DNA from: an uncultured Carboxylicivirga sp.
GTDB lineage: Bacteria > Bacteroidota > Bacteroidia > Bacteroidales > Marinilabiliaceae
NCBI RefSeq assembly: GCF_963668385.1
Contig: NZ_OY764327.1
Span: 2,976,001 to 3,040,000 of the forward strand
Reading direction: 5' to 3'
Length of the DNA stretch: 64,000 nucleotides
Below the pieces are notes generated by a model. That model saw only the letters and a list, made by a program, of their open reading frames with translations. It was not told where the DNA came from and searched no databases. Shown here one piece after another: positions 1 to 10,767 of this stretch. Positions within the stretch are counted from its first letter, which is position 1, and each line of letters begins with the position of its first letter. The position numbers and the translations under genes were made by a program.

Positions 1-330
1 CATTGCAATAAACAAGAGTCCAAGATATGAAGTGCCATTAATCCCCCAATATGCAAATTCATTGTAATTCAAACGAAATCCAAGCACAAAGAAAACAAGT
101 CCTCCCACTACTCCAAGAACCTTACTCCATTTTGCAGAATTATTAGTTCCTAATTTTATAGCTCTCCCATTATTAAGCTTAATCCTTAACAAAAAGAAAT
201 CATATACAAACATTGATATTATTATTAAGGTAGTTAAAGGAATCATTATATAACTATCAAATCGCCTATATACGATATAAACTAAGAAATAGAGTATAAA
301 TAAAATAGAGAGTCTAACTATTGTCTTCAT
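1..330 (-). CDS. Small multi-pass membrane protein of cassette C14 (partial, C-terminus off window)
   Basis: An open minus frame starts at ATG 328-330 (MKTIVRLSILFILYFL...) and runs at least 110 codons to the window edge without a stop. It shows three hydrophobic stretches: residues 3-19, 25-42, and around 69-80 in a Gly/Val/Phe-rich segment. I do not recognise the family. It lies in the cassette ending at attC-1, about 80 bp from the cassette boundary, in the same orientation as the other cassette genes. Function is unknown. Small inner-membrane proteins are the commonest content of this array. Confidence 0.6.
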   Translation of the reverse strand, partial: MKTIVRLSILFILYFLVYIVYRRFDSYIMIPLTTLIIISMFVYDFFLLRIKLNNGRAIKLGTNNSAKWSKVLGVVGGLVFFVLGFRLNYNEFAYWGINGTSYLGLLFIAM

Positions 331-406
331 TTATTATGGTTTTAGTCAATGCAAGGTTTTTTCATTCCGTTTAAATTTATATGTACTATCTCTGTCATGG
401 CATTGG

Positions 407-538
407 GCACAACGTTTGCTGGATGAAGTCGTGGCGCATTAGTCGTGGTGTCGTGTCACCCGTTAGGGGGACTAAGACAGTAGACTAAGGTGTCAGGACG
501 AGCAAAGCGCGCCATGCTTTATTTCCAGCGTGTTAGCG
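407..538 (-). repeat. attC-like site 1 (major family)
   Basis: The outer box gcacaac (407-413) opens the site and gttagcg (532-538) closes it. Inside, TTTGCTGG and CCAGC form the inner arms, separated from the boxes by unpaired GT-rich spacers. The centre (gtcgtggcgcat... agcgcgccatgc) forms an imperfect stem. It separates cassettes C14 and C13. Confidence 0.9.
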
Positions 539-880
539 GCTGGCCATTTATATTTATTAATGTCTTATAGTTCAAAGTTCAAGAACAGTTATAATTATTA
601 AAAGTCAGGAAATCTTTCAAGTCATATTGATAATTAATAGTCATGAAGTTTGATGTTTATTTAGTCACAATTAAAAATCGGATAAGTTGTCTGTAACTTT
701 AATCTTATAGTATAAGTGTCAAAAAAATTCTTTTAAGATATTTTGTCTTGATGAAATGAAAATTCCTCCTTGATAGAAAAAAATTTCTCCTTGATGAAAA
801 AATATTTTCTTCTTGATGGAAATCTCACCGCGTCTAAATGTTAAAAGCAATGCTTAGTTTTCGATTGCTCAACGGCTTGC
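539..880 (-). other. Cassette C13 body, no convincing gene, 21-22 bp tandem repeats
   Basis: This 350 bp cassette starts GTTAGCGG and ends CCGCTAAC, so its boundaries are intact. No minus-strand frame of useful length exists; the longest ATG frame I could read in part is about 21 codons (from ~642). Four imperfect tandem units with a TTGATG-like core (cores at 748, 770, 791, 813) occupy 742-830. On the cassette-coding strand the unit reads roughly CATCAAGGAGAAA. The rest is very AT-rich. It could be a decayed gene, a regulatory RNA, or a short repeat peptide. Confidence 0.55.
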
Positions 881-1011
881 CGCTAACGGTGGCTGGATGA
901 AGTCGTGGCGCATTAGTCGTGGTGTCGTGTCACCCGTTAGGGGGACTAAGACAGTAGACAAAGGCGTCAGGACGAGCAAAGCGCGCCATGCTTTATGCCA
1001 GCGTGTTGGGT
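881..1011 (-). repeat. attC-like site 2 (major family)
   Basis: Opens with cgctaac (881-887) and closes with gttgggt (1005-1011). The left spacer reads GGTG rather than GTTT and the right arm reads GCCAGC. The central stem matches the other major-family copies. The C12 gene runs into this site before stopping. Confidence 0.9.
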
Positions 1012-1524
1012 AGCGTACATTTTACTATTAATTTCACTTATTATCCTTTTGGCTTGGTCTGTGTTGATTTGTTTTCCAATCATTCTTTTCTTTTTTCTTA
1101 GGTTCACAACAACTTTTATAGTTGATAAACCAAAAAAATCAAGTCCAATTGATCCAAATCCTTTAGATGAATCACCAATTCCAATATTAATTATTTCTTT
1201 TTTTAGATACTTTTTTGATTGTCTAAATAGCCAAACGACTTTTGTGTGTTTTATATAATTTGAATGTATTTCAATATTTTCAGTCCCAATGAGGAGATAA
1301 AAAATGTTGAAAAAATTATAATACGTAGCCCAAAGGAAAATTGCTATTATTGTCAATAAAATAGGATTGACTTCTGCATAAATCAATTCGAATCCTATTC
1401 TAGAAATGATATAAACAAATCCTAAAAATAAAAAAGAAACAAAAGCAACAAGTCCTATTATAACCTTGTCCCTTTTAATATTAATAGTGGTGAATTCTGT
1501 ATTCTTTTTTATTTCGAAATTCAT
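967..1524 (-). CDS. Two-helix membrane protein with basic C-terminal domain (cassette C12)
   Basis: The 185-residue product has two hydrophobic hairpin helices (about residues 22-46 and 54-77) followed by a ~100-residue soluble part rich in Lys and beta-prone stretches (ENIEIHSNYIKHTKVVW, then GLDFFGLSTIKVVVNL). This layout resembles bacterial PH-like/YcxB-type membrane proteins, which is inference from architecture only. The ATG at 1522-1524 lies ~45 bp inside the cassette boundary. The stop codon falls inside attC-2, so the last ~14 residues are encoded by the recombination site. Function is unknown. Confidence 0.7.
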   Translation of the reverse strand: MNFEIKKNTEFTTINIKRDKVIIGLVAFVSFLFLGFVYIISRIGFELIYAEVNPILLTIIAIFLWATYYNFFNIFYLLIGTENIEIHSNYIKHTKVVWLFRQSKKYLKKEIINIGIGDSSKGFGSIGLDFFGLSTIKVVVNLRKKKRMIGKQINTDQAKRIISEINSKMYATQHAGIKHGALCSS

Positions 1525-1560
1525 GTTTTTTACTAGATGTTCTTGTTAGGAAGGTATGCT

Positions 1561-1691
1561 ACCCAACGTTTGCTGGATGAAGTCGTGGCGCGTTAGTCGT
1601 GGTGTCGTGTCACCCGATAGGGGGACAAAGACAGTAGACAAAGGCGTCAGGACGAGGCGAACGAGCCATGCTTTATTCCAGTGTGTTACGC
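1561..1691 (-). repeat. attC-like site 3 (major family; identical to site 10 beyond the left box)
   Basis: Opens with acccaac (1561-1567) and closes with gttacgc (1685-1691). It carries the variant bases cccgataggg, gacaaagac and gaggcgaacgagcc, and a CCAGTG right arm. All of these are shared with site 10 at 5964-6094. It is the attC of duplicated cassette C11. Confidence 0.92.
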
Positions 1692-1841
1692 CCTGTTGGT
1701 TTTTTGTTTCAAGTTAGTTTAATTTCCCAATTGGACATAATTCTCCCACTTAGGTTCCTTGTAATTATTCGATCAAATTATTGTCCGAATATACAAGTTA
1801 GTCCGTGTTTATTGAGCTGGTCTCGCTCTTATATATCAAAT

Positions 1842-2069
1842 CTATTTTATTCGTTTTGCTCTACGATCTAAATTTTGTTTTTCAGAACGTTTTTGTCTGA
1901 AGTCCTCTAATTTGATTTTCGAACAAAGCTTATTAAACTGGATTTCTTTGTCTAATTCAGTCTGTATTATTTTTCGAGTTTTTTCGAGTCCTGCTGGTTG
2001 TCCTGTTGATGTATTAATTTCAATTTTATATGCTGGTTTTCTCCGTCCGTCCGACTTTTGAGAATTCAT
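1842..2069 (-). CDS. Small basic protein of duplicated cassette C11
   Basis: This 75-residue, strongly basic, probably helical protein (starts MNSQKSDGRRKPAYK, ends RRAKRIK) begins 60 bp from the cassette boundary. An identical copy lies at 6245-6472 in cassette C4. The two cassettes agree over about 570 bp, including the attC on their left, so the copies are recent. There is no transmembrane segment or recognised domain. The Lys/Arg-rich C-terminus could bind nucleic acid, but that is only a guess. About 150 bp between its stop and attC-3 hold nothing recognised. Confidence 0.55.
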   Translation of the reverse strand: MNSQKSDGRRKPAYKIEINTSTGQPAGLEKTRKIIQTELDKEIQFNKLCSKIKLEDFRQKRSEKQNLDRRAKRIK

Positions 2070-2122
2070 TCACGTCTGTTTTTATTTGTTAATGATTCTT
2101 ATGCACTGAGTTTTATAATAGG

Positions 2123-2312
2123 GCGTAACGGTGGTTGCATGGCGTCGTAAGGGGATTTAGCCTCACAAACTTTCATAATTGCGCTAAGCCAAAGGGCATA
2201 TTTGTTTTACATTTCTTTTTTAAAGCCAAATTTGCAATTTGGCGCTGGTCGACTTTGCAGAGGCCTACCCAAATTCAGCGAATCCCTTATGCGCTATTGC
2301 AACGTGTTGGGT
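2123..2312 (-). repeat. attC-like site 4 (divergent, long)
   Basis: Opens with gcgtaac (2123-2129) and closes with gttgggt (2306-2312), 190 bp in total. The arms GGTTGCATGGCG and CGCTATTGCAACG pair, and the pairing continues through gtaaggggatt/aatcccttat. The internal sequence is unrelated to the major family, but the box-spacer-arm plan is the same. Confidence 0.88.
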
Positions 2313-2809
2313 GTTGTGCTTTTCTGTTTATTTATTTCTTCCAATATAGTTTTAAAACAGTATAAAAATTGATTTTTAGATCCAATTCTGTTAAAGATCC
2401 GAAATGAGTCGTCTTTCAAAACTACTGTAATTGTGTCTGGTTTAGAATAAGTATTATATCCAGAGTTTCCTATAAATACAAAGTCGTCAATAACTATTGA
2501 TTTTAGAACCGATTTAAATATATCTGTATAACTTTCACTAAACTCAATTTTCTTTATGTCCGAATAGTTAAAAGTTTCTTTGCTATTAAAAATTGGTAAA
2601 ATACTTTTACCATTAAGTTCAAATCTGTCCTTAAATATTTGAATACACCTGTCTTTTATTAAAAAACTCATTAAGATTAAATATAATCCGACTAATATTA
2701 CCAATGTATTAATCCATATAACAGTAATGATTGTCGCGATTCCAAGAAGAATTAAAACTATTCTTAGAATTACTTTAGTCGTATTATTCTCTTTGTATTC
2801 TTTAATCAT
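2294..2809 (-). CDS. Two-helix membrane protein with soluble C-terminal domain (cassette C10)
   Basis: The 171-residue product has hydrophobic segments at about residues 13-30 and 32-48, then a ~115-residue soluble part with alternating beta-like segments (CIQIFKDRFELNGK, then DTITVVLKDDSFRIF). Its architecture resembles the proteins of cassettes C12 and C9, although I see no obvious sequence identity. The gene starts 62 bp inside the cassette. Its last ~6 codons and its stop lie in attC-4. A PH-like membrane protein is plausible; function is unknown. Confidence 0.7.
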   Translation of the reverse strand: MIKEYKENNTTKVILRIVLILLGIATIITVIWINTLVILVGLYLILMSFLIKDRCIQIFKDRFELNGKSILPIFNSKETFNYSDIKKIEFSESYTDIFKSVLKSIVIDDFVFIGNSGYNTYSKPDTITVVLKDDSFRIFNRIGSKNQFLYCFKTILEEINKQKSTTPNTLQ

Positions 2810-2864
2810 GAATTTAAATTATTGAGAGAACGGAATAATTGATTTACGTGCATTCCAGCATTAC

Positions 2865-2996
2865 ACCCAACGTTTGCTGGATGAAGTCGTGGCGCGTTAG
2901 TCGTGGTGTCGTGTCACCCCCTAGGGGGACTAAGACGGTAGACTAAGGTGTCAGGACGAGCCGAACGAGCCATGATTTATTTCCAGCGTGTTAGCT
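2865..2996 (-). repeat. attC-like site 5 (major family)
   Basis: Opens with acccaac (2865-2871) and closes with gttagct (2990-2996). Distinguishing bases are cccctagggggac in the centre and ccgaacgagcc in the right stem. It separates cassettes C10 and C9. Confidence 0.9.
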
Positions 2997-3004
2997 TGCG
3001 TTTT

Positions 3005-3547
3005 TTAAATTTTATATTCGACCTTATATAACTTAATAACATCTTGCCAATGTTTAAAGATAGGTGTAAGATTTTCAAAGTCTTTTAAACTAAAGATTTC
3101 AATTTCAAAATCATATTTTAGATTCTGAATACAAAATATTATTTGAGTAGCAACTTCAGTTTCATATCGCTCATCACCCTCGTAAGGCAAATCTTTAATT
3201 ACTTTCAGTTCTTCAATTAACCGTATTTCAAAAGATTGGTTTATTTTCTTACTAATAACTTCGATTTTTTCTTTGCTTAAATATATTTGGCCATTTCTAA
3301 ATGGCACAAGTCTTGGAATAGAAATAAAAACAACAAAAGAAATTAGAAATCCAATCCAGCCAACAACTCTCCAAATTTCATTTATTCCAAATAGCCATTC
3401 AAAAACAGTTATGTCTTTTTCGCCATATTCTATATAAATCCATTGAAAAAGGAAGAAGAATATAAATGTTAATACAAGCGATGTCACTTGCAACAACCTT
3501 GCTGTCAATCTTCTCTTTCTATCTATATAGTTAAATTTATACTTCAT
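3005..3547 (-). CDS. Two-helix membrane protein with C-terminal soluble domain (cassette C9)
   Basis: The 180-residue product has a basic N-terminus (KYKFNYIDRKRR), hydrophobic segments at about residues 18-38 and 62-78, and a ~100-residue soluble domain (QIYLSKEKIEVISKK, then a long amphipathic C-terminal part). It is the third protein in this array with two N-proximal helices followed by a PH-like length of soluble sequence. The ATG at 3545-3547 is ~105 bp from the cassette boundary, so the cassette could hold its own promoter. The stop lies just before the attC-5 box. Family is unrecognised. Confidence 0.7.
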   Translation of the reverse strand: MKYKFNYIDRKRRLTARLLQVTSLVLTFIFFFLFQWIYIEYGEKDITVFEWLFGINEIWRVVGWIGFLISFVVFISIPRLVPFRNGQIYLSKEKIEVISKKINQSFEIRLIEELKVIKDLPYEGDERYETEVATQIIFCIQNLKYDFEIEIFSLKDFENLTPIFKHWQDVIKLYKVEYKI

Positions 3548-3646
3548 AAAAATAGTACTTTCTCGTATCTTGTTTGCTACTTATATGCTTGACTGGACCT
3601 TTTTTAAGGAATAAAATGGATATTTATGTATTATGTGGTAAATGCA

Positions 3647-3777
3647 AGCTAACGTTTGGCATAAGACCAGTGGTGGATTTTGCGCAGATTTCGTGTCCGC
3701 CAGGACTAAGAAATCAAACAACAATCCGCCCGACCAAAACTATACCGAACCACCATTGGGTTTATGCTTTGTTAGTT
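3647..3777 (-). repeat. attC-like site 6 (divergent)
   Basis: Opens with agctaac (3647-3653) and closes with gttagtt (3771-3777). Arms TTTGGCATAA and TTATGCTTTG pair, then CCAGTGGTGG pairs with CCACCATTGG. The interior is unrelated to the major family. Confidence 0.88.
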
Positions 3778-4236
3778 GCTGTTATTTTTCAACTTATGCC
3801 TTAAAATTTTCGATAATAATTTATAATAAAGTTCCCATAAGACAATTGTCGTCCAAATGCTGTATAAAAAATAATTCCATAGTCTTGAGCTCTCTGCAAT
3901 TTTAGTAAAACAACTACTATGATAATTAATAGTCTCATTCACATAAATTTTGAAAGTCAATAATAAAATTGAAATAATGAATATTGGAGTAAGAAGCTTC
4001 CATCTTAAAATGCCAAAATGACTTGTTAAACTTTTACATATGTCATAATGAAGTTTAACAAATACTACTGGGAGTGTAAAAACTATCAATAGTAATCCAT
4101 AATTCTTTTGTACGATTCCAAATAAGAAACCTATTCCCAATAAAATAAAAACACCAAAAATATAATTGATCACAGATCTGGTATATAACCTAAGTCTACT
4201 TATTAGTTCCATTATTTTCCATACTCTATTTGTCAA
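3772..4236 (-). CDS. Multi-pass membrane protein (cassette C8)
   Basis: The 154-residue, mostly hydrophobic product has likely membrane helices at about residues 22-40, 46-62, 81-98 and 121-137, with no soluble domain. Its stop codon overlaps the closing box of attC-6, so it uses the cassette completely on that side. The ATG at 4234-4236 is ~80 bp from the other cassette boundary. I recognise no family and no catalytic motif. It could be an immunity or toxin-like membrane protein, but there is no direct evidence. Confidence 0.65.
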   Translation of the reverse strand: MTNRVWKIMELISRLRLYTRSVINYIFGVFILLGIGFLFGIVQKNYGLLLIVFTLPVVFVKLHYDICKSLTSHFGILRWKLLTPIFIISILLLTFKIYVNETINYHSSCFTKIAESSRLWNYFLYSIWTTIVLWELYYKLLSKILRHKLKNNSN

Positions 4237-4307
4237 CTGTTAATATTAGTCGTAATCATTCTCAATATACTTCTTGAAAGATTATTCTCAATAACGTCAG
4301 CAATAGC

Positions 4308-4399
4308 AACTAACTTCTAACTAGGCGCTGAAATGGAAACTGCTATTATATGTGAATATAATAGCCGGTTTCTGTTTTTGCGTTTAGTGAGTGTTATGG
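4308..4399 (-). repeat. attC-like site 7 (divergent, short)
   Basis: Opens with aactaac (4308-4314) and closes with gttatgg (4393-4399), 92 bp. Arms ACTAGGCGC and GCGTTTAGT pair, and the centre is a hairpin, GCTATTATAT/ATATAATAGC. It separates cassettes C8 and C7. Confidence 0.85.
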
Positions 4400-4400
4400 G

Positions 4401-4423
4401 CTGTTATTAAAAAAAAATAACAG
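4401..4423. other. Hairpin at the distal end of cassette C7
   Basis: CTGTTATT and AATAACAG (8 bp, perfect) flank a run of seven A. On the minus strand the loop is seven T. It lies between the structured element and attC-7. It could be a transcript-end structure, although no U-tract follows the stem. Confidence 0.4.
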
Positions 4424-4479
4424 CGAACCCGTTGTCGGTATTGTCCTTTGCTAGGCTATTTATCCCGTTTTTTGGTTTC

Positions 4480-4758
4480 ACCCTGTTTCGGCTACACGTA
4501 TTCTCTATTATATTTTATATGGAGTGTCCGTGTGCCAGGTCTAAAAGTAGTCATTCTTAAAAGGTCCGTTTTGTTTGAGAAGGTTTAAATCAAACTTGAC
4601 TTTTTGATTTAAATCGAATAACTTCTCTCTCCAAAGTTGATTGGACGGCTTCTCGTCCGAAAAGGCGACTTTTCAACGGTATCACCGTATCAACTTTGAT
4701 CCTTCTTTCAAATCAAAACTTTCCATATACTATATGACTACTTTTAGTCAAACAGGGT
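4480..4758. ncRNA. Multibranched structured element filling ORF-less cassette C7
   Basis: Nested helices can be read directly. Outer stem: ACCCTGTTT 4480-4488 with AAACAGGGT 4750-4758. Long stem, 14 bp without mismatch: 4541-4554 with 4734-4747. Next, GTTTTG-TTTGA-GAAGG 4568-4583 pairs with 4701-4719, with two small bulges. Inside is a 10 bp hairpin (4584-4593/4604-4613) and a 10 bp stem CAAAGTTGAT 4632-4641/4689-4698. That last stem holds three hairpins: GGACG 4643-4658, GAAAAG with a GCGA loop 4659-4674, and ACGGT/ACCGT 4676-4688. The cassette has no ORF. A non-coding RNA is the simplest reading. The strand is uncertain: cassette direction implies minus, while the GNRA-type GCGA loop appears on plus. 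Confidence 0.6.
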
Positions 4759-4788
4759 AAAGCTTAAGTTTCAATACTCGACTATGGG

Positions 4789-4920
4789 CCATAACGTTTG
4801 CTGGATGAAGTCGTGGCGCGTTAGTCGTGGTGTCGTGTCACCCGATAGGGGGACTAAGACAGTTGACTAAAGTGTCAGGACGAGCCGACCGAGCCATGCT
4901 TTATTTCCAGCGTGTTAGCC
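4789..4920 (-). repeat. attC-like site 8 (major family)
   Basis: Opens with ccataac (4789-4795) and closes with gttagcc (4914-4920). Right-stem bases are ccgaccgagcc. Its opening box matches the start of cassette C7 (GTTATGG) over 7 bp, the weakest boundary match in the array. Confidence 0.9.
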
Positions 4921-4932
4921 CTTGTTGTTTTA

Positions 4933-5373
4933 TTAATAATCTAAAAATGTTGCAACACGAATAATGTCTGCATAATTGTCAAGTAGACTTATTTCTGAAA
5001 TAAATTCAGATTCCGTCATTAATTTCAAATTCGTAATGGGATACAGATGCTTGGTCTTAGAAATAATTTTTCTTTTTAATTCATCCAATGAAATCTGAAT
5101 ACCACTATTTGTCGTACTGAAAATAACTTGTAACCTTGATTGTCCAAAAAATTTAAATAAAGGCCCTGTCTTACTTAAAATTTTATGGGTAATTATTTTG
5201 ATATAATACCCATTGCTGTCAATTAAGATTCTTTTGTAATGCTTGTCAAGATCATTTTCATTAATATGATGAATTGCATCTTTTTCTTCTTCTAAAATCT
5301 CTACAAATCCTTTTTCCCCATTGAAAACCCAATCTGTAAGTTCGATCAATGGATATTTTATTTCACTAGTCAA
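4933..5373 (-). CDS. Soluble protein of unknown function (cassette C6)
   Basis: The 146-residue soluble protein has acidic and aromatic stretches (TDWVFNGEKGFVEILEEEKD at about 13-32) and no transmembrane segment or signal peptide. I recognise no family. The ATG at 5371-5373 is 51 bp from the cassette boundary and the stop lies ~13 bp before the attC-8 box, so the gene fills its cassette. Composition looks like a genuine globular alpha/beta protein. Confidence 0.7.
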   Translation of the reverse strand: MTSEIKYPLIELTDWVFNGEKGFVEILEEEKDAIHHINENDLDKHYKRILIDSNGYYIKIITHKILSKTGPLFKFFGQSRLQVIFSTTNSGIQISLDELKRKIISKTKHLYPITNLKLMTESEFISEISLLDNYADIIRVATFLDY

Positions 5374-5417
5374 TTATTTTCAATATTTATGAAATGAACG
5401 TTTGGTTATTCAATAAG

Positions 5418-5548
5418 GGCTAACGTTTGCTGGATGAAGTCGTGGCGCGTTAGTCGTGGTGTCGTGTCACCCGTTAGGGGGACTAAGACAGTAGACAAAG
5501 GCGTCAGGACGAGCAAAGCGCGCCATGCTTTATTCCAGCGTGTTACAG
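5418..5548 (-). repeat. attC-like site 9 (major family)
   Basis: Opens with ggctaac (5418-5424) and closes with gttacag (5542-5548). The right stem is agcaaagcgcgccatgc, as in sites 1 and 2. It separates cassettes C6 and C5. Confidence 0.9.
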
Positions 5549-5568
5549 GCCGTGTGTTATTCTTGTTT

Positions 5569-5820
5569 TGTTTTTCTGTCATATATTTTTCATTTTCCGA
5601 CACATCTATTTGATTTACTGTCTCAAGAAAATGATTCTCCGTCATATATTTATTGCTTATCATCTACTACAAATCATGTTCAGTCATGTGTTTTTCATTT
5701 TCAGTCACCTATAAATCATTTTCTGCCACTAACTTTTCATAAACCGATGCCAGAAAATCAAATTTTCATGACCGGGAATCATAATTTCATCGTCGTGAAT
5801 GAAAATTTAAATAATTCACA
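5569..5820 (-). repeat. Twelve degenerate 21 bp tandem repeats in cassette C5
   Basis: Units start at 5569 and every 21 bp to 5800. The consensus on plus is about TCATTTTCNGTCANNTATTTT. Units at 5674, 5695 and 5716 match best. Twenty-one bases equal seven codons. On the cassette strand one frame gives heptads such as VTENEKH, MTENHFL and VSENEKY, but with TAG codons between some of them. The only open stretch (ATG at 5663) runs through attC-9 to a stop at 5406. I therefore do not call a gene with confidence; a decayed or programmed repeat peptide is possible. Confidence 0.7.
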
Positions 5821-5963
5821 AAAAAATGTAGAGTTGAAGTCAAAATAAAGTTAATGTCTTTAAAACGTACAACATGGTCACAGAAATTGAAATAATTGTC
5901 AGTCTTAATGTTTGAGTGTTTTACTAAAATACAGATACAAGGACGAGAAGTACCCGACATGGC

Positions 5964-6094
5964 CTGTAACGTTTGCTGGATGAAGTCGTGGCGCGTTAGT
6001 CGTGGTGTCGTGTCACCCGATAGGGGGACAAAGACAGTAGACAAAGGCGTCAGGACGAGGCGAACGAGCCATGCTTTATTCCAGTGTGTTACGC
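5964..6094 (-). repeat. attC-like site 10 (major family; identical to site 3 beyond the left box)
   Basis: Opens with ctgtaac (5964-5970) and closes with gttacgc (6088-6094). It shares every variant base of site 3. It is the attC of cassette C4, the second copy of the duplicated cassette. Confidence 0.92.
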
Positions 6095-6244
6095 CCTGTT
6101 GGTTTTTTGTTTCAAGTTAGTTTAATTTCCCAATTGGACATAATTCTCCCACTTAGGTTCCTTGTAATTATTCGATCAAATTATTGTCCGAATATACAAG
6201 TTAGTCCGTGTTTATTGAGCTGGTCTCGCTCTTATATATCAAAT

Positions 6245-6472
6245 CTATTTTATTCGTTTTGCTCTACGATCTAAATTTTGTTTTTCAGAACGTTTTTGTC
6301 TGAAGTCCTCTAATTTGATTTTCGAACAAAGCTTATTAAACTGGATTTCTTTGTCTAATTCAGTCTGTATTATTTTTCGAGTTTTTTCGAGTCCTGCTGG
6401 TTGTCCTGTTGATGTATTAATTTCAATTTTATATGCTGGTTTTCTCCGTCCGTCCGACTTTTGAGAATTCAT
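6245..6472 (-). CDS. Small basic protein of duplicated cassette C4
   Basis: This 75-residue protein is identical in every residue to the product of 1842-2069. The surrounding DNA is the same from the left attC through the right cassette boundary, at a constant offset of 4403 bp. The right-hand neighbours differ: the copy at 2129 meets attC-4, and this copy meets attC-11. The unit that was copied is therefore exactly one minus-strand cassette, gene plus its downstream attC. Function is unknown. Confidence 0.55.
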   Translation of the reverse strand: MNSQKSDGRRKPAYKIEINTSTGQPAGLEKTRKIIQTELDKEIQFNKLCSKIKLEDFRQKRSEKQNLDRRAKRIK

Positions 6473-6525
6473 TCACGTCTGTTTTTATTTGTTAATGATT
6501 CTTATGCACTGAGTTTTATAATAGG

Positions 6526-6656
6526 GCGTAACGTTTGTTGCAAGAAGCGTAGCAGAATCACGATGATTGCCGTCCGCAGGACGATTAAGCAATCTGGGTG
6601 ATTCTGTGGTGTTTCACGACCATGCACACTGCTATGATTTTTGCAACGTGTTATGC
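6526..6656 (-). repeat. attC-like site 11 (divergent)
   Basis: Opens with gcgtaac (6526-6532) and closes with gttatgc (6650-6656). Arms GTTTGTTGCAAG and TTTTTGCAACG pair, and inner GAATCACGATGATTGC pairs imperfectly with the gattctgtggtg region. It is distinct from the major family but the same length. Confidence 0.85.
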
Positions 6657-7105
6657 GCTGCCGGTTTTGTTATTTAAATTATTAATCGTTCTTAAAATCT
6701 GGTTAAACCTATTGAAACCCCGACACACTTCCCAAAATAGCCAACTATTAAAGCACCTCACCATTTTTGGCCAAATTTATGCAAAAGATCAGAGGCCCAA
6801 CTAAACTTCCAAACTAAGCAATTTGCAAGTCAGAAGGAGCGGGGCGGCCTTTTGTTAAACCGAGTGTGCTGACAATTTATACAACAGCTTAAACAGCCCG
6901 TAAATGTTGATGAGCACACTTTCAAAATTATGCGAAATCCTAACAAAGATGTTTAGCCGAGAGCGTTTCAAAAATAGGAAATGCTTGATAACCTAAATTG
7001 CCAAAATAATTAAGCTTGCGCGATGGCCGTGGGCTGCGCAAATTCATCTTTCGCCCGACTTTCGTAAAAAATCCTCCCAATAGTCATTGCTGTTCGTCGG
7101 TTAGC
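6657..7105 (-). other. Cassette C3 body, no gene recognised
   Basis: The cassette runs from GTTATGCGC to its complement GCGCATAAC. No minus-strand frame of 60 codons or more is present, and the plus frame at 6598-6804 crosses the attC and is unlikely. Short inverted repeats occur, for example GTGTGCT near 6863 with AGCACAC near 6913, and TTGCGC near 7015 with GCGCAA near 7035. They do not build a clear larger fold by eye. Confidence 0.5.
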
Positions 7106-7237
7106 GCATAACGTTTGCTGGATGAAGTCGTGGCCCATTAGTCGTGGTGTCGTGTCACCCGATAGGGGGACTAAGACGGTAGACTAAAGTGTCAGGACGA
7201 GCAACCCGCGCCATGCTTTATTTCCGGCGTGTTAGGC
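7106..7237 (-). repeat. attC-like site 12 (major family)
   Basis: Opens with gcataac (7106-7112) and closes with gttaggc (7231-7237). Variant bases are gtggcccatta, paired with aacccgcgccatgc, and a CCGGC right arm. It separates cassettes C3 and C2. Confidence 0.9.
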
Positions 7238-7246
7238 ACTGGCTGT

Positions 7247-7672
7247 TTATTTTTCATATATAATAATTACATCTAAAGTCGAATCGGTATAGTTCACTTG
7301 CTCTATTTGAGTTATTGGTTCTAATTCATGTGAATACGAAATTTTCAATGTGTCGAATGAAACCCACTCAGTCTTTACAGTTGTTCCTGATATATGTTCT
7401 GTTGAAAACACTATTTTTGTTTTAAGGTCTTCAGTTTTGTTCTTGTTTCCTAAATCAATTGACACATGAATAGAAGAATTTGTTACAGCATTTCCTCCAA
7501 ATTCAAATATAGTTGCTTGTCTTAAACCTTCATTGTCGTAAACAGTTTCTATAATTTGTTTCTCAGGCTCTCCAAACATGTCAAATGAACTAATGAAAAT
7601 TACAAAGCTAATTACTAATCCAACTAATAAAATCAATGTAGTCAGAAGTCCATATTTTACGATTTTATTCAT
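7247..7672 (-). CDS. Membrane-anchored protein, possibly DUF5412-like (cassette C2)
   Basis: The 141-residue product has one N-terminal membrane helix (about residues 8-29) and a ~110-residue exported or extracytoplasmic part. The segment ATIFEFGGNAVTNSSIHVSI (about residues 53-72) resembles my memory of DUF5412-type small membrane-anchored proteins, where a Gly-rich strand precedes a VSI motif; treat the name as tentative. The ATG at 7670-7672 is only ~20 bp from the cassette boundary, so expression probably needs an upstream promoter. Confidence 0.7.
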   Translation of the reverse strand: MNKIVKYGLLTTLILLVGLVISFVIFISSFDMFGEPEKQIIETVYDNEGLRQATIFEFGGNAVTNSSIHVSIDLGNKNKTEDLKTKIVFSTEHISGTTVKTEWVSFDTLKISYSHELEPITQIEQVNYTDSTLDVIIIYEK

Positions 7673-7685
7673 TTTTTCAGCTTGT

Positions 7686-7816
7686 GCCTAACGGCTCGAA
7701 TATGCGTAGTGCGGGATTTCAAGGCAATTCACTATCAAACCGCTCCTTTGTTTATTAAATGCTTTAAAGCTCAAATTTACCACATTGCCCCGCATTACGT
7801 ATATTTATTGTTGTGT
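7686..7816 (-). repeat. attC-like site 13 (divergent, nearest the recombinase)
   Basis: Opens with gcctaac (7686-7692) and closes with gttgtgt (7810-7816). Arms AATATGCGTAGTGCGGG and CCCCGCATTACGTATATT pair almost fully. The interior is unrelated to the major family. It is the attC of cassette C1. Confidence 0.9.
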
Positions 7817-7820
7817 GGCG

Positions 7821-8297
7821 TTATTTCATTTTCAAATCATCTAACTCTTTTTTAATCTGAGATAGGTGATTGTTTATTAAATTATAAATTTTCTTCCCTT
7901 GATTAATGATTTCATCAGCGTCTTTTGCATTAGCTAATTTCTGAACAGGTGTCTTAAGTTTATTACAAAGAGAATCAACTTCATTTTGCTGATTAAAAAT
8001 ACTTTTATGCTCATTCAAAAGTGACGAATACTCTAAAACTCTACTAGCAATTTCATTATTATCAACTCCCTTAATCTTCGTTGCTGTTGCTGTAGGTCCA
8101 ACTTTTCTTAATTCTTTAATAATGTTTTTTGTTTCTGAATATACTTTTGAAATTTCTTCTGTATTTTTTATGTCTAAAATTTCATTCTTTGCAGAAGTCG
8201 CTATCTCAGCACTATTCTTGGCTTTTCTTGCTTCGCTGATTGCTATAATCGCACCTATAATAGAAGCTAAACCTGTTATTATTGTAAAAGCATCCAT
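7821..8297 (-). CDS. Membrane-anchored coiled-coil protein, second gene of cassette C1
   Basis: The 158-residue product has an N-terminal hydrophobic helix (ITGLASIIGAIIAISEAR, about residues 6-23) followed by long Lys/Glu-rich helices likely to form coiled coils (about 25-65 and 85-157). It is the second gene of the only two-gene cassette here and starts 7 bp after the stop of the first. The pair is probably co-transcribed and functionally linked. I recognise no family. A two-gene effector plus membrane-anchor module is a reasonable guess, not shown by sequence. Confidence 0.7.
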   Translation of the reverse strand: MDAFTIITGLASIIGAIIAISEARKAKNSAEIATSAKNEILDIKNTEEISKVYSETKNIIKELRKVGPTATATKIKGVDNNEIASRVLEYSSLLNEHKSIFNQQNEVDSLCNKLKTPVQKLANAKDADEIINQGKKIYNLINNHLSQIKKELDDLKMK

Positions 8298-8304
8298 TTA
8301 TAAG

Positions 8305-8727
8305 TTATTTTTCAAATTCATCAAGGTCGAAATTCTTGCATTCTATTGGAGAATGTTGCGAATTCATTTTATCTATAAGTTCTACAAACTGATGATTTGC
8401 TTTTAAATAAGTAAGAATAGGAATAGCTTTTCCTCTACCAATTCCTCGTTGTTGTAGTTTATGCTCAATATCATAAAATCCTTTAAATTCTTGTCTTTTT
8501 TCCAAATCACGCCAATATTCATCAAGGACGTCCATTACTGCATATAGTTCTTCTCTTGATACAGCACCAATACGTTCAATTTCTTCATCTATAACGTTCT
8601 CGAATCCATTTAACAATCCAAAAATCTGTGAAGGTTCTGCAGGGCATGCCATATCTTCAGAATTGTTTTGTATTCTATATATCTCGCCTAGTATTTTTCC
8701 AAAAAATAATTTTGATTCGTTATCCAT
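8305..8727 (-). CDS. Soluble helical protein of unknown function, first gene of cassette C1
   Basis: The 140-residue acidic, mostly helical protein starts MDNESKLFFGKILGEIYRIQ and contains EEIERIGAVSREELYAVMD near residues 54-72. It has no signal peptide or membrane segment. It is the gene closest to the recombinase and so the likeliest to be transcribed through the head of the array. The ATG is ~60 bp inside the cassette boundary at 8788. Its partner at 7821-8297 follows after 7 bp. Family unrecognised. Confidence 0.7.
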   Translation of the reverse strand: MDNESKLFFGKILGEIYRIQNNSEDMACPAEPSQIFGLLNGFENVIDEEIERIGAVSREELYAVMDVLDEYWRDLEKRQEFKGFYDIEHKLQQRGIGRGKAIPILTYLKANHQFVELIDKMNSQHSPIECKNFDLDEFEK

Positions 8728-8781
8728 ATTTTATTATATCAGTTATTAAAATTATTATCTATTGTTTGAGATGTTAATGCC

Positions 8782-8830
8782 ACACAACTTTTCTGTAACC
8801 GTCGGTGTATGACGGTTACATTGCCTTTAT
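8782..8830 (-). other. Probable attI-like attachment site with hairpin
   Basis: This 49 bp stretch lies between the recombinase stop (8831) and the first cassette. Cassette C1's opening box GTTGTGTGGC (7810) has its complement ending at 8788, so the crossover point is here. A perfect 10 bp inverted repeat TGTAACCGTC/GACGGTTACA (8794-8803/8811-8820, 7 nt loop) fills the site. It contains attC-like GTAAC and GTTAC cores. No T-run follows, so it is not a typical terminator. Confidence 0.6.
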
Positions 8831-10303
8831 CTATTGTCCCGAAGCTAATTTAGCTTCTTTTTTTATGATAATATCATCTAATGGACTCTTAATTCGTTCT
8901 AGATATTTATTACTAACATAGGTGTAAATATCCGTTGTGGTCGATGAACTATGGCCCAATAGCTCTTGTATATACCTTATGTCGGTGCCCGATTCTAATA
9001 AGTGGGTGGCAAAGCTATGACGTAACGAGTGTAAACCCCCTCGTTTGGGTACACCACTTTTTTTAATTGCCTGTGCTAATATTCTTCCGGCACTTGTGCT
9101 CGAATATTTACCTCCAAACTGCCCTTCAAATAAATAGTTAGTTGGTTTGTATTCCTTATAATATACTCTTAAAGCCTCTAAAATCGATTGCCCAATAATG
9201 CTATATCTGTCCTTTCTTCCTTTCCCTGCAAGTATTCTAATGCGCATCCGCTTGGAGTCAATGTCATTAAGTTTAATGTTTAGGGCTTCACCAATTCTTA
9301 ATCCACTACCATATATTAATGCAATTAGTGCCTTATGCTTCGAATTCTCCAGGCTCTGTAGTATCAGACTCATCTCTTCCTTACTCCATACTTTGGGTAG
9401 TTGCTTGCCTACTCTGGGGCGAATCACTTCTTTTACCTCTAACTCTTTTTGCAGATAGCCTTTGTAATAGAGCTTAATGGCATTGATTGACTGATTTAAG
9501 GTGGCAAATGAGTAATCTTTCTCTCCTTGCATCAGTTCATGATATCTGTTTATTATTTCCGAACCAAAATCATTGATCTCATTCAAATTATTTTGTTTGT
9601 AGCAATTAATAAATCGCAAAACAAAATAGTAATAGGTATTAATGGTGTTTGCACTATAGCCTTTTAATTGCATGTATTTTAAAAAATCAAGCGGAACACT
9701 TTTAAAAAAATGGTCTTTTACATACTCTTGTTCAAATAGTTTTTGAATAATGGAATGATCTTTAATTTTTAGTTCGTTATGTAGCCTTATTTTTACATCG
9801 CCCGATACTGTATCAATAAATTTCGATAATATTATAAGCTTTGGCTCTAAAGTGAAATCACTTATGCTACTATTCCAATGTGCATAGGTGTTTTTGACCA
9901 ATATCTGATGTATACTCTTCTTAAATTTATATTTGATAATGATCAATCGTTCGTCATTGTTATGGTAGGGAACCAACATTATTGACCCATACTTCTCTTT
10001 TGCCTCAAGTATGCCATTAAAGTATACTGTGTCACCAATAACAGTTTTTTCGACATTACTTTTTAATTCGGCATGGTAATATTTAGTGCTTATGTCAGCA
10101 ATGTCTTCAAAAATGTCTTTAATTAATCCAATTGTATTTGATTTTAGAGGGGCGGTGTATGCTTTTAATTCAACATTCCATGTTATCCAACTATTCAGTG
10201 CAATACGTTCCAATAAAACAGAATTGTTTTTGAAAAGCAATGCGCATACAGCTCTGCTTTCAAGCGTTCTTTTATTAAGATATATAATTGGCTTTGGTAC
10301 CAT
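8831..10303 (-). CDS. Tyrosine recombinase, candidate cassette integrase with N-terminal extension
   Basis: The 490-residue protein probably moves the cassettes. The recombinase part starts near residue 203 with a SAM-like core-binding domain. The catalytic set is complete: R336 (SGLRIGEA), K361 (AGKGRKDR), H425-x-x-R428 (LHSLRHSFATHLLE), H451 (LLGH) and Y460 (DIYTYV), ending KSPLDD. K361 to H425 is 64 residues. From memory this is ~72 in XerD and ~106 in IntI1, so the IntI-specific insertion is absent. Residues 1-200 are extra and look like two diverged copies of one ~55-residue unit (18-73 and 118-172, each with a conserved Trp and I/L-F pattern). It is codirectional with the cassettes, unlike most intI genes. 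Confidence 0.85.
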   Translation of the reverse strand: MVPKPIIYLNKRTLESRAVCALLFKNNSVLLERIALNSWITWNVELKAYTAPLKSNTIGLIKDIFEDIADISTKYYHAELKSNVEKTVIGDTVYFNGILEAKEKYGSIMLVPYHNNDERLIIIKYKFKKSIHQILVKNTYAHWNSSISDFTLEPKLIILSKFIDTVSGDVKIRLHNELKIKDHSIIQKLFEQEYVKDHFFKSVPLDFLKYMQLKGYSANTINTYYYFVLRFINCYKQNNLNEINDFGSEIINRYHELMQGEKDYSFATLNQSINAIKLYYKGYLQKELEVKEVIRPRVGKQLPKVWSKEEMSLILQSLENSKHKALIALIYGSGLRIGEALNIKLNDIDSKRMRIRILAGKGRKDRYSIIGQSILEALRVYYKEYKPTNYLFEGQFGGKYSSTSAGRILAQAIKKSGVPKRGGLHSLRHSFATHLLESGTDIRYIQELLGHSSSTTTDIYTYVSNKYLERIKSPLDDIIIKKEAKLASGQ

Positions 10304-10392: not shown

Positions 10393-10767
10393 ATGAGCTC
10401 AGAAATTCAATTAACTTGTTTGTACTGTCATGAACCGATGGTCGGAAGAAGTGATAAAAAATTTTGTAACATTCAGTGCAAAAGTGCCTTTCATAATCAG
10501 TCTCAAAATTCGGTCGAATTATATATTCGATCCGTTAATAAGCAGCTTCGAACAAACAGAAGTGCCATGCGAAAAGCATGTCCTCAGGGTAAAGCTACTG
10601 TTCGGAAAGAGTTTGTTAAAAAACTCGGTATGGATTTCAAACATCTTACACATACCTGGAAAAGTAAAGGAGGTAATTTATATTATTTTTGTTACGATTA
10701 TGGGTATACTCCTTCAACCGATTTAACTAAAATAGTAATCATTCAACAACAGGATTATATGGGATGA
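10393..10767 (+). CDS. Small zinc-ribbon protein divergent from the recombinase
   Basis: The 124-residue protein has an N-terminal zinc-ribbon-like knuckle pair: C9-x2-C12 and C25-x3-C29 (LTCLYCHEP, KKFCNIQC). A basic helical middle (RTNRSAMRKACPQGK) and a C-terminal region rich in aromatics (YYFCYDYGYTP) follow. Similar small Zn proteins occur in Bacteroidota, but I cannot name a family securely. It is transcribed away from the recombinase with an 89 bp shared intergenic region and lies outside the cassette array. It may regulate or assist the recombinase, or be an unrelated neighbour. Confidence 0.75.
   Translation: MSSEIQLTCLYCHEPMVGRSDKKFCNIQCKSAFHNQSQNSVELYIRSVNKQLRTNRSAMRKACPQGKATVRKEFVKKLGMDFKHLTHTWKSKGGNLYYFCYDYGYTPSTDLTKIVIIQQQDYMG

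Follow-up and report, generated by a model that had tools for sequence, protein, structure and literature searches.

An integron-like cassette array beside an insert-less tyrosine recombinase in the chromosome of an uncultured Carboxylicivirga sp.

Cassette array and first junction

We analyzed a stretch of 64,000 nt (hereafter the window) from an uncultured Carboxylicivirga sp. (NCBI RefSeq assembly GCF_963668385.1, contig NZ_OY764327.1, here C1), in which a tyrosine recombinase gene adjoins an array of putative gene cassettes. The host genome is represented by one contig of 6.27 Mb (completeness 100), and the window corresponds to C1:2976001-3040000. One recombinase gene can be read at the locus, followed by a putative attI-like junction and by cassettes that run from GTT to AAC, carry a predicted hairpin site at the 3' end and have their open reading frames (ORFs) mostly in the direction of the recombinase. 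Based on these features and the comparisons described below, the locus is very probably a chromosomal integron-like cassette platform, in which a Xer-like integrase lacking the IntI insert would recombine hairpins whose strand is coded by wobble pairs.

Thirteen attC-like sites were located between positions 411 and 7812, and the array together with the first junction spans 411-8830 (Table 1). All 13 complete cassettes start with GTT and end with AAC. The GTT/AAC R boxes, complementary within each cassette as is expected of integrons, pair over at least 7 nt in 13/13 (9-10 nt in 12 cassettes and 7 nt in one), and position 11 is mismatched in every case. The stretch contains 1933 GTT/AAC pairs lying 300-1000 nt apart; complementarity of at least 9 nt is seen in 13 of them, 12 of which are the cassettes. 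When the first 12 kb were block-shuffled three times, no linked cassettes appeared.

The recombinase stop codon and the first GTT are separated by 42 nt. In integrons attI lies beside the integrase gene; here a sequence that may be compared with it by likeness only is present 3' of the gene. A cassette that follows the expected grammar begins within 160 nt of the recombinase stop in 39 of 89 locus rows, in which L062 and L094 are one record counted twice. Ahead of the first GTT, the 39 rows share T at -9 (92%), A at -8 (97%), and A at -4 (90%), often preceded by a dyad. Between the window and its nearest relative, L062, the attI-like junction is nearly the same and the first cassette is different.

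Table 1. Features of the recombinase locus (window coordinates; the strand is that of the feature as read).
Feature	Position	Strand	Remarks
attC-like site 1 (AAC...GTT)	411..534	+	read directly; cassette ends checked
attC-like site 2	885..1007	+	cassette ends checked
cassette ORF, 185 aa	967..1524	-	without Pfam match at E<=0.01
attC-like site 3	1565..1687	+	cassette ends checked
attC-like site 4, long-loop type	2127..2308	+	cassette ends checked
cassette ORF, 171 aa	2294..2809	-	without Pfam match at E<=0.01
attC-like site 5	2869..2992	+	cassette ends checked
cassette ORF, 180 aa	3005..3547	-	without Pfam match at E<=0.01
attC-like site 6, different loop type	3651..3773	+	cassette ends checked
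cassette ORF, 154 aa	3772..4236	-	without Pfam match at E<=0.01
attC-like site 7, short type	4312..4395	+	read directly; cassette ends checked
attC-like site 8	4793..4916	+	cassette ends checked
cassette ORF, 146 aa	4933..5373	-	without Pfam match at E<=0.01
attC-like site 9	5422..5544	+	cassette ends checked
attC-like site 10	5968..6090	+	cassette ends checked
attC-like site 11, GTTGCAAG type	6530..6652	+	cassette ends checked
attC-like site 12	7110..7233	+	cassette ends checked
cassette ORF, 141 aa	7247..7672	-	DUF5412 match below its cut-off
attC-like site 13	7690..7812	+	cassette ends checked
recombinase-proximal cassette	7810..8788	-	two ORFs: 8305-8727 and 7821-8297
attI-like junction, recombinase stop to first cassette	8786..8830	-	9-bp dyad GTAACCGTC/GACGGTTAC, 6 nt, then GTT; read directly
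490-aa tyrosine recombinase, intact	8831..10303	-	two N-terminal repeats, core-binding domain, catalytic domain without IntI insert

The recombinase

The protein matches Phage_integrase (E 8.6e-36), and its AlphaFold2 model has a mean predicted local distance difference test score (pLDDT) of 88. Residues R336, K361, H425, R428, H451, and Y460 are invariant in 52 homologues. The Lys-His spacing is 64 residues (K361 to H425), and it is 64-69 in all 78 readable sequences of 80 named homologues, compared with 106 in 17/17 readable canonical controls (20 loci from 19 genomes, hand-picked from phylum-wide IntI matches). The alignment to the V. cholerae integrase 2A3V breaks at the insert, where 29 query positions face 72 target positions; by this gap and by the spacing, the recombinase is without the IntI-specific additional domain between the Lys and His motifs. 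Among solved structures it aligns throughout with XerA, the best matches being 4A8E and 5HXY.

The best curated model is the integron integrase TIGR02249, at 195.6 bits (cut-off 265), followed by archaeal XerA at 193 bits. Assignment to XerC or XerD was rejected, the scores for TIGR02224 and TIGR02225 being 181 and 175 bits against cut-offs of 335 and 330. A profile search of the one-contig genome revealed no integrase over the TIGR02249 cut-off. In a midpoint-rooted tree of 88 rows, which contains no host XerC/D or XerA (the Xer-like proteins L005 and L006 of this genome are missing from it) and in which one row linked to an insertion sequence (IS) forms a long branch, the 15 canonical IntI proteins are separated from the insert-less ones as a single clade (100/100).

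The two N-terminal repeats are predicted to be about 65 aa long (approximately aa 5-77 and 106-176), each with a beta-beta-alpha-beta-beta-alpha order. No match to HARP (PF07443) was detected in the window recombinase at E<=0.01, and the best score among its relatives is 21.0 bits, under the Pfam gathering score of 25. A profile of the N-terminal extension gave two matches only against solved structures (E 0.71 and 1), and Foldseek with the N-terminal model returned nothing below E 0.001, SMARCAL1 HARP (4O66) appearing at E 0.41. HARP and XPB domains bind DNA structures, and repeats of a HARP/XPB-like kind might conceivably help the enzyme to recognize folded or junction DNA. Relatives such as L082, L109, L135, L139, and others range from about 345 to 580 aa, and some matches lie in open frames of more than 700 aa; these differences in length apparently reflect the number of N-terminal HARP-like repeats. 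A divergent ORF of 124 aa with CxxC and CxxxC motifs (window 10393-10767, plus strand) starts about 90 nt from the recombinase start and has no Pfam match at E<=0.01.

The locus had previously been described from its letters alone, and the observations in that original prediction are confirmed. The 13 attC-like sites and the R-box complementarity of every complete cassette were found as claimed, as were the spacing of 64 residues and the missing IntI segment, and the value of about 106 that had been given for IntI agrees with the controls. The gene does adjoin the first junction, although the distance had been given as 43 bp. The designation as a Xer-type, non-IntI enzyme holds insofar as the protein is insert-less; a plain XerC/D it is not, in view of its best model, which it matches below the cut-off, and its N-terminal extension, on which the original prediction was silent.

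Cassette clusters and evidence of movement

The array continues past window position 1 and is far larger than the window shows. Sites of the commonest type fall into four clusters, which are spread across about 240 kb (roughly C1:2744 kb to 2983 kb). The 18-nt core of this site, allowing up to three mismatches, has 81 forward and 7 reverse matches in the genome, mainly in the four clusters. The clusters (C1:2744-2785, 2835-2845, 2897-2922, and 2969-2985 kb) share one orientation, with about 50 kb of other DNA between each. Their origin from a single array split by 50-kb insertions was considered and dropped, as the boxes at the cluster edges do not match. The 490-aa recombinase adjoins only the last of the four.

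Chains of at least three comprise 94 cassettes. The longest ORF (at least 80 aa) points in the direction of the recombinase in 71 of these and in the opposite direction in one; 22 cassettes have none. The ORF starts a median of 44 nt past the GTT.

Near-identical cassettes form 38 pairs. Their 3' sites have equal known length in 34 pairs and agree by 91-100%, and past the next junction all 37 comparable pairs diverge (23-47% identity), the exact match stopping 3-7 nt from the G of GTT. Upstream of the first GTT about half of the pairs also differ, and the rest share a common site type there. For example, cassettes 1685..2129 and 6088..6532 of the window (both on the minus strand) are identical over 445 nt and the 117-nt 3' site, while their flanks show 23-25% identity. 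One pair is an exception (C1:2899626 and 2764841): body and upstream site are alike, and the 3' sites measure 117 and 178 nt. Since duplicates share the body and the 3' site and diverge at the GTT, what moves is usually, as with integrons, a cassette together with the 3' site that belongs to it. The duplicates indicate, indirectly, that cassettes have moved.

When 63 distinct cassette products were scanned (C1:2736-2985 kb), single members matched candidate phage-defense models, including PDC-S14, PDC-S31, and PDC-M40A, and one cassette ORF matched WD40-type models.

An IS91-type element is present in three copies (G000:C1:2973402, C1:2910983, and L015 at about C1:3730 kb), each with a tyrosine recombinase of 301 aa and a neighboring gene that, judging by its sequence, we take to be an IS91-type Y2 transposase. 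In all three copies the insertion point is immediately past the GTGTTG/TTGTTG end of an attC-like sequence, and the element is possibly an attC-targeting IS. The 301-aa recombinases were rejected as array integrases, as they adjoin the presumed transposase gene.

Homologues in Bacteroidota and in phage contigs

Linked cassettes were found in 13 of 33 regions around the family of the window recombinase. In a set of 80 named loci that were ranked by protein match alone, with 10 of the 17 query rows coming from array-bearing loci (L094 again among these), a linked array lies downstream of the gene in 20 of the 36 loci with at least 3 kb of downstream DNA, and upstream in 1/69. At least three cassettes are present in 13 of these 20 loci, including records titled Rufibacter, Pontibacter, Seonamhaeicola, Flaviramulus, Winogradskyella, Arcticiflavibacter, Aquimarina, Runella, Aequorivita, and Flavobacterium. 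No linked array was detected in the other 16 of the 36 loci. Two-cassette chains occur in about 5 of 160 shuffles. Under a looser test, which asks for only one cassette no more than 300 nt from the stop, 25 of the 36 named loci score, compared with 18/70 on the downstream side of the IMG/VR loci described below. A contig end lies within 1.5 kb downstream in 37/80 loci and upstream in 4/80, a crowding expected if the 3' side is repetitive.

A recombinase profile of 52 rows was matched by 164 of 295 sampled Bacteroidia genomes at E<=1e-60 (best E<=1e-100 in 144); these are protein profile matches only, and some are IS-linked relatives. A canonical IntI over the cut-off was found in 1/295 of the same genomes. 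In a phylum-wide sample 105 of 395 genomes had an IntI over the cut-off, and one matching genome belongs to the class Bacteroidia. The canonical controls carry the array upstream of the gene in 9/20 loci and downstream in 2/20 (L264 and L270) at a run of at least 9; the nine upstream arrays were used for the comparison of sites, leaving out L264 and L270. Four further relatives from records with non-Bacteroidota titles, L117 and L121 (titled Nitrospirae), L136 (Deltaproteobacteria), and L156 (Halonatronum), cluster with two proteins from IMG/VR. No linked array was seen in any of them, L117 showing one near-stop match of 16 nt, and the titles of such metagenome-assembled genomes may reflect mis-binning.

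Homologues of about 275 aa were identified in IMG/VR (L174-L253). Their treatment as canonical integrons was rejected, the Lys-His spacing being 58-68 in all 75 readable of 80 proteins. Chains of the same grammar lie 5' of the gene in 37/80 loci, with at least three cassettes in 15, and an insert-less recombinase with an array is seen notably in L188, L200, L209, L220, and L221. Some of these loci are near-copies of each other (L214, L219, and L220), and several chains begin 12-25 nt from the open frame. Two-cassette chains count for little here, because short chains arise in shuffles of such AT-rich DNA (9/65).

A search of 26 such IMG/VR records with phrog_2 gave eight matches, seven of them at E<=1e-16; PHROGs identifies all seven of these proteins as terminase large subunits, and they are over the Pfam cut-off of Terminase_6N. 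Close to the recombinase, two terminase records show longer chains, of three cassettes in L188 (97 kb) and five in L220 (256 kb). In the other terminase records there are two-cassette chains only (L226, L235, and L246), none (L183), or too little upstream DNA (L229). Judged by their gene content, at least two phage contigs, L188 and L220, carry an array of this type.

Predicted folding of the sites

Folding was computed with DNA parameters, and the values given here are predictions. The bottom strand is the more stable one in 82/82 integrated sites of the Carboxylicivirga genome (18/18 loop types), compared with 46/150 random control segments, and in 93/103 sites of the relatives. In modeled circular cassettes the bottom strand is favored in 71/71 cases in this genome, 72/74 in the relatives, 73/74 in IMG/VR, and 39/48 in canonical integrons. 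The asymmetry is apparently caused by G-T pairs of the bottom strand, which become A-C mismatches on the top strand; stems contain on average 1.70 G-T pairs in relatives and 1.29 in IMG/VR, compared with 0.13 in canonical sites. Loops vary among the sites of the genome, and the arms are kept.

In canonical integrons, the choice of strand is set by extrahelical bases, which are read by the IntI insert. Leaving aside sites without a terminal L stem (1/71 in the own genome, 17/74 in relatives, 2/74 in IMG/VR, and 3/48 in canonical integrons), such bulges are predicted on the 3' arm of 44/45 canonical sites, 9/57 sites of Bacteroidota relatives, and 0/72 IMG/VR sites. The Carboxylicivirga genome is intermediate, with a 3'-arm bulge in 43/70 sites; in 35 it falls after pair 6, a place also seen in canonical sites. 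Cassette position 11 is A in 92/92 cassettes of relatives and 108/108 IMG/VR cassettes, and an A/C pair is found there in 78/92 and 83/108, respectively, compared with 0/60 in canonical integrons. Because the insert and the extrahelical bases are mostly absent together in the relatives, strand choice in these models appears to be wobble-coded rather than bulge-coded.

Proposed mechanism and alternative explanations

We propose that the recombinase would excise and insert cassettes by recombining the bottom strand of the 3' site, in its folded form, with the attI-like junction or other sites. The strand would be chosen mainly by G-T wobble, the stem being paired on the bottom strand and interrupted at the same positions by A-C mismatches on the top. 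The original prediction of an integron-like function with a distinct mechanism is supported by these results. Its suggestion that the enzyme must recognize its sites in another way fits the relatives, most of whose sites have no extrahelical bases, but fits the host genome less well, its sites being still frequently bulged. A canonical intI elsewhere in the genome, or homologues that never neighbor arrays, had been named as grounds against it; the profile search and the downstream arrays of the named loci showed neither.

The array could alternatively be an ordinary or degenerate integron, the work of a canonical IntI that has since been lost or is encoded elsewhere, with the neighboring recombinase as a passenger. 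Canonical integrons are indeed present in the phylum, three of the four clusters have no adjoining homologous recombinase (IS-linked copies aside), and the host's own sites often keep the bulge at the canonical place. However, no IntI is found over the cut-off in the one-contig genome and next to none in the sampled genomes of the class, the adjacency of recombinase and array and the attI-like motif recur in many genera, the site grammar differs from the canonical one, and IntI forms a fully supported clade of its own, which makes this origin most unlikely. We also regard it as very unlikely that the sites are recombined as double-stranded DNA in the manner of Xer, the hairpins being incidental inverted repeats. 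An insert-less enzyme like XerA, the Xer-like dyad of the attI-like junction, and the bulge-free stems of many relatives, which mimic duplex DNA, are all consistent with such a reaction. It does not account for the strand-specific stability of nearly all sites or for variable loops between conserved arms; moreover, the two cassette ends agree with one another for about 10 nt even though the sequence itself varies, and this match matters only if the hairpin forms.

Movement of the cassettes by other Xer-like recombinases of the host, or by the IS91-type tyrosine recombinase, is barely credible, although genes for both exist in the genome and IS91-type copies lie in the arrays. The surroundings of two other Xer-like genes, L016 and L017, showed no array over 19-20 kb, and the IS91-linked recombinase, present in three IS copies identical over 1382 nt, looks like a visitor. 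An integron-like platform served by its own insert-less integrase is the reading we retain.

Relation to known systems

The system resembles sedentary chromosomal integrons, which have a canonical IntI, in its GTT-bounded cassettes, the 3' hairpin site with a bottom-strand fold, the attI-like first junction, ORFs mostly in one orientation, and a scale of the kind known from superintegrons. Spacers are short on the 5' side and long on the 3' side in both, mostly 2/6 in canonical sites and mostly 2/4 here. It differs from canonical integrons in an integrase that lacks the insert and has an N-terminal extension, in an array that lies 3' of the gene, in the A found throughout at position 11 (mostly in an A/C mismatch), and in wobbles that replace extrahelical bases in most relatives. 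The insert-less catalytic core is shared with Xer recombinases, both archaeal XerA and bacterial XerC/D. Unlike these, the enzyme is array-linked and has 490 aa with N-terminal repeats; Xer recombinases use dif, and hairpin-type cassette sites are found here instead.

Integration of CTX-phi by host XerCD likewise combines an insert-less recombinase with a folded single-stranded site free of extrahelical bases (PMC4792948); unlike in CTX-phi, the gene for the present recombinase adjoins the array, and the enzyme would act on many cassettes. The same paper names CTX-phi as the only similar reaction, calls the joint origin of the IntI insert and attC a chicken-and-egg problem, and speculates on a viral origin (PMC4792948). 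Integrons are defined in part by the additional domain of IntI (PMC9668308). As this domain is missing, we do not call the system an integron and describe it as probably working like one. For Bacteroidetes proper, one complete integron is named, in Salinibacter ruber (PMC9024848). No description of array-linked insert-less integrases was recognized in searches of an open-access library that excludes bioRxiv, and this is limited evidence of novelty.

A wider reading, which we hold tentatively and with some doubt, is that Bacteroidia chromosomes and large tailed phages share a second, separate integron-like lineage, in which insert-less integrases would act on wobble-coded bottom-strand hairpins rather than on extrahelical bases. 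The data suggest that cassette platforms of Bacteroidia have been missed by integron surveys that rely on IntI. The question of how the insert and attC arose becomes directly testable with insert-less integrases that are linked to arrays of wobble-coded sites, on chromosomes and on terminase-bearing contigs. If the second lineage is real, it would show in living systems how folded cassette sites might have existed before the IntI insert, and it would possibly be a relic of an ancestral, perhaps viral, state.

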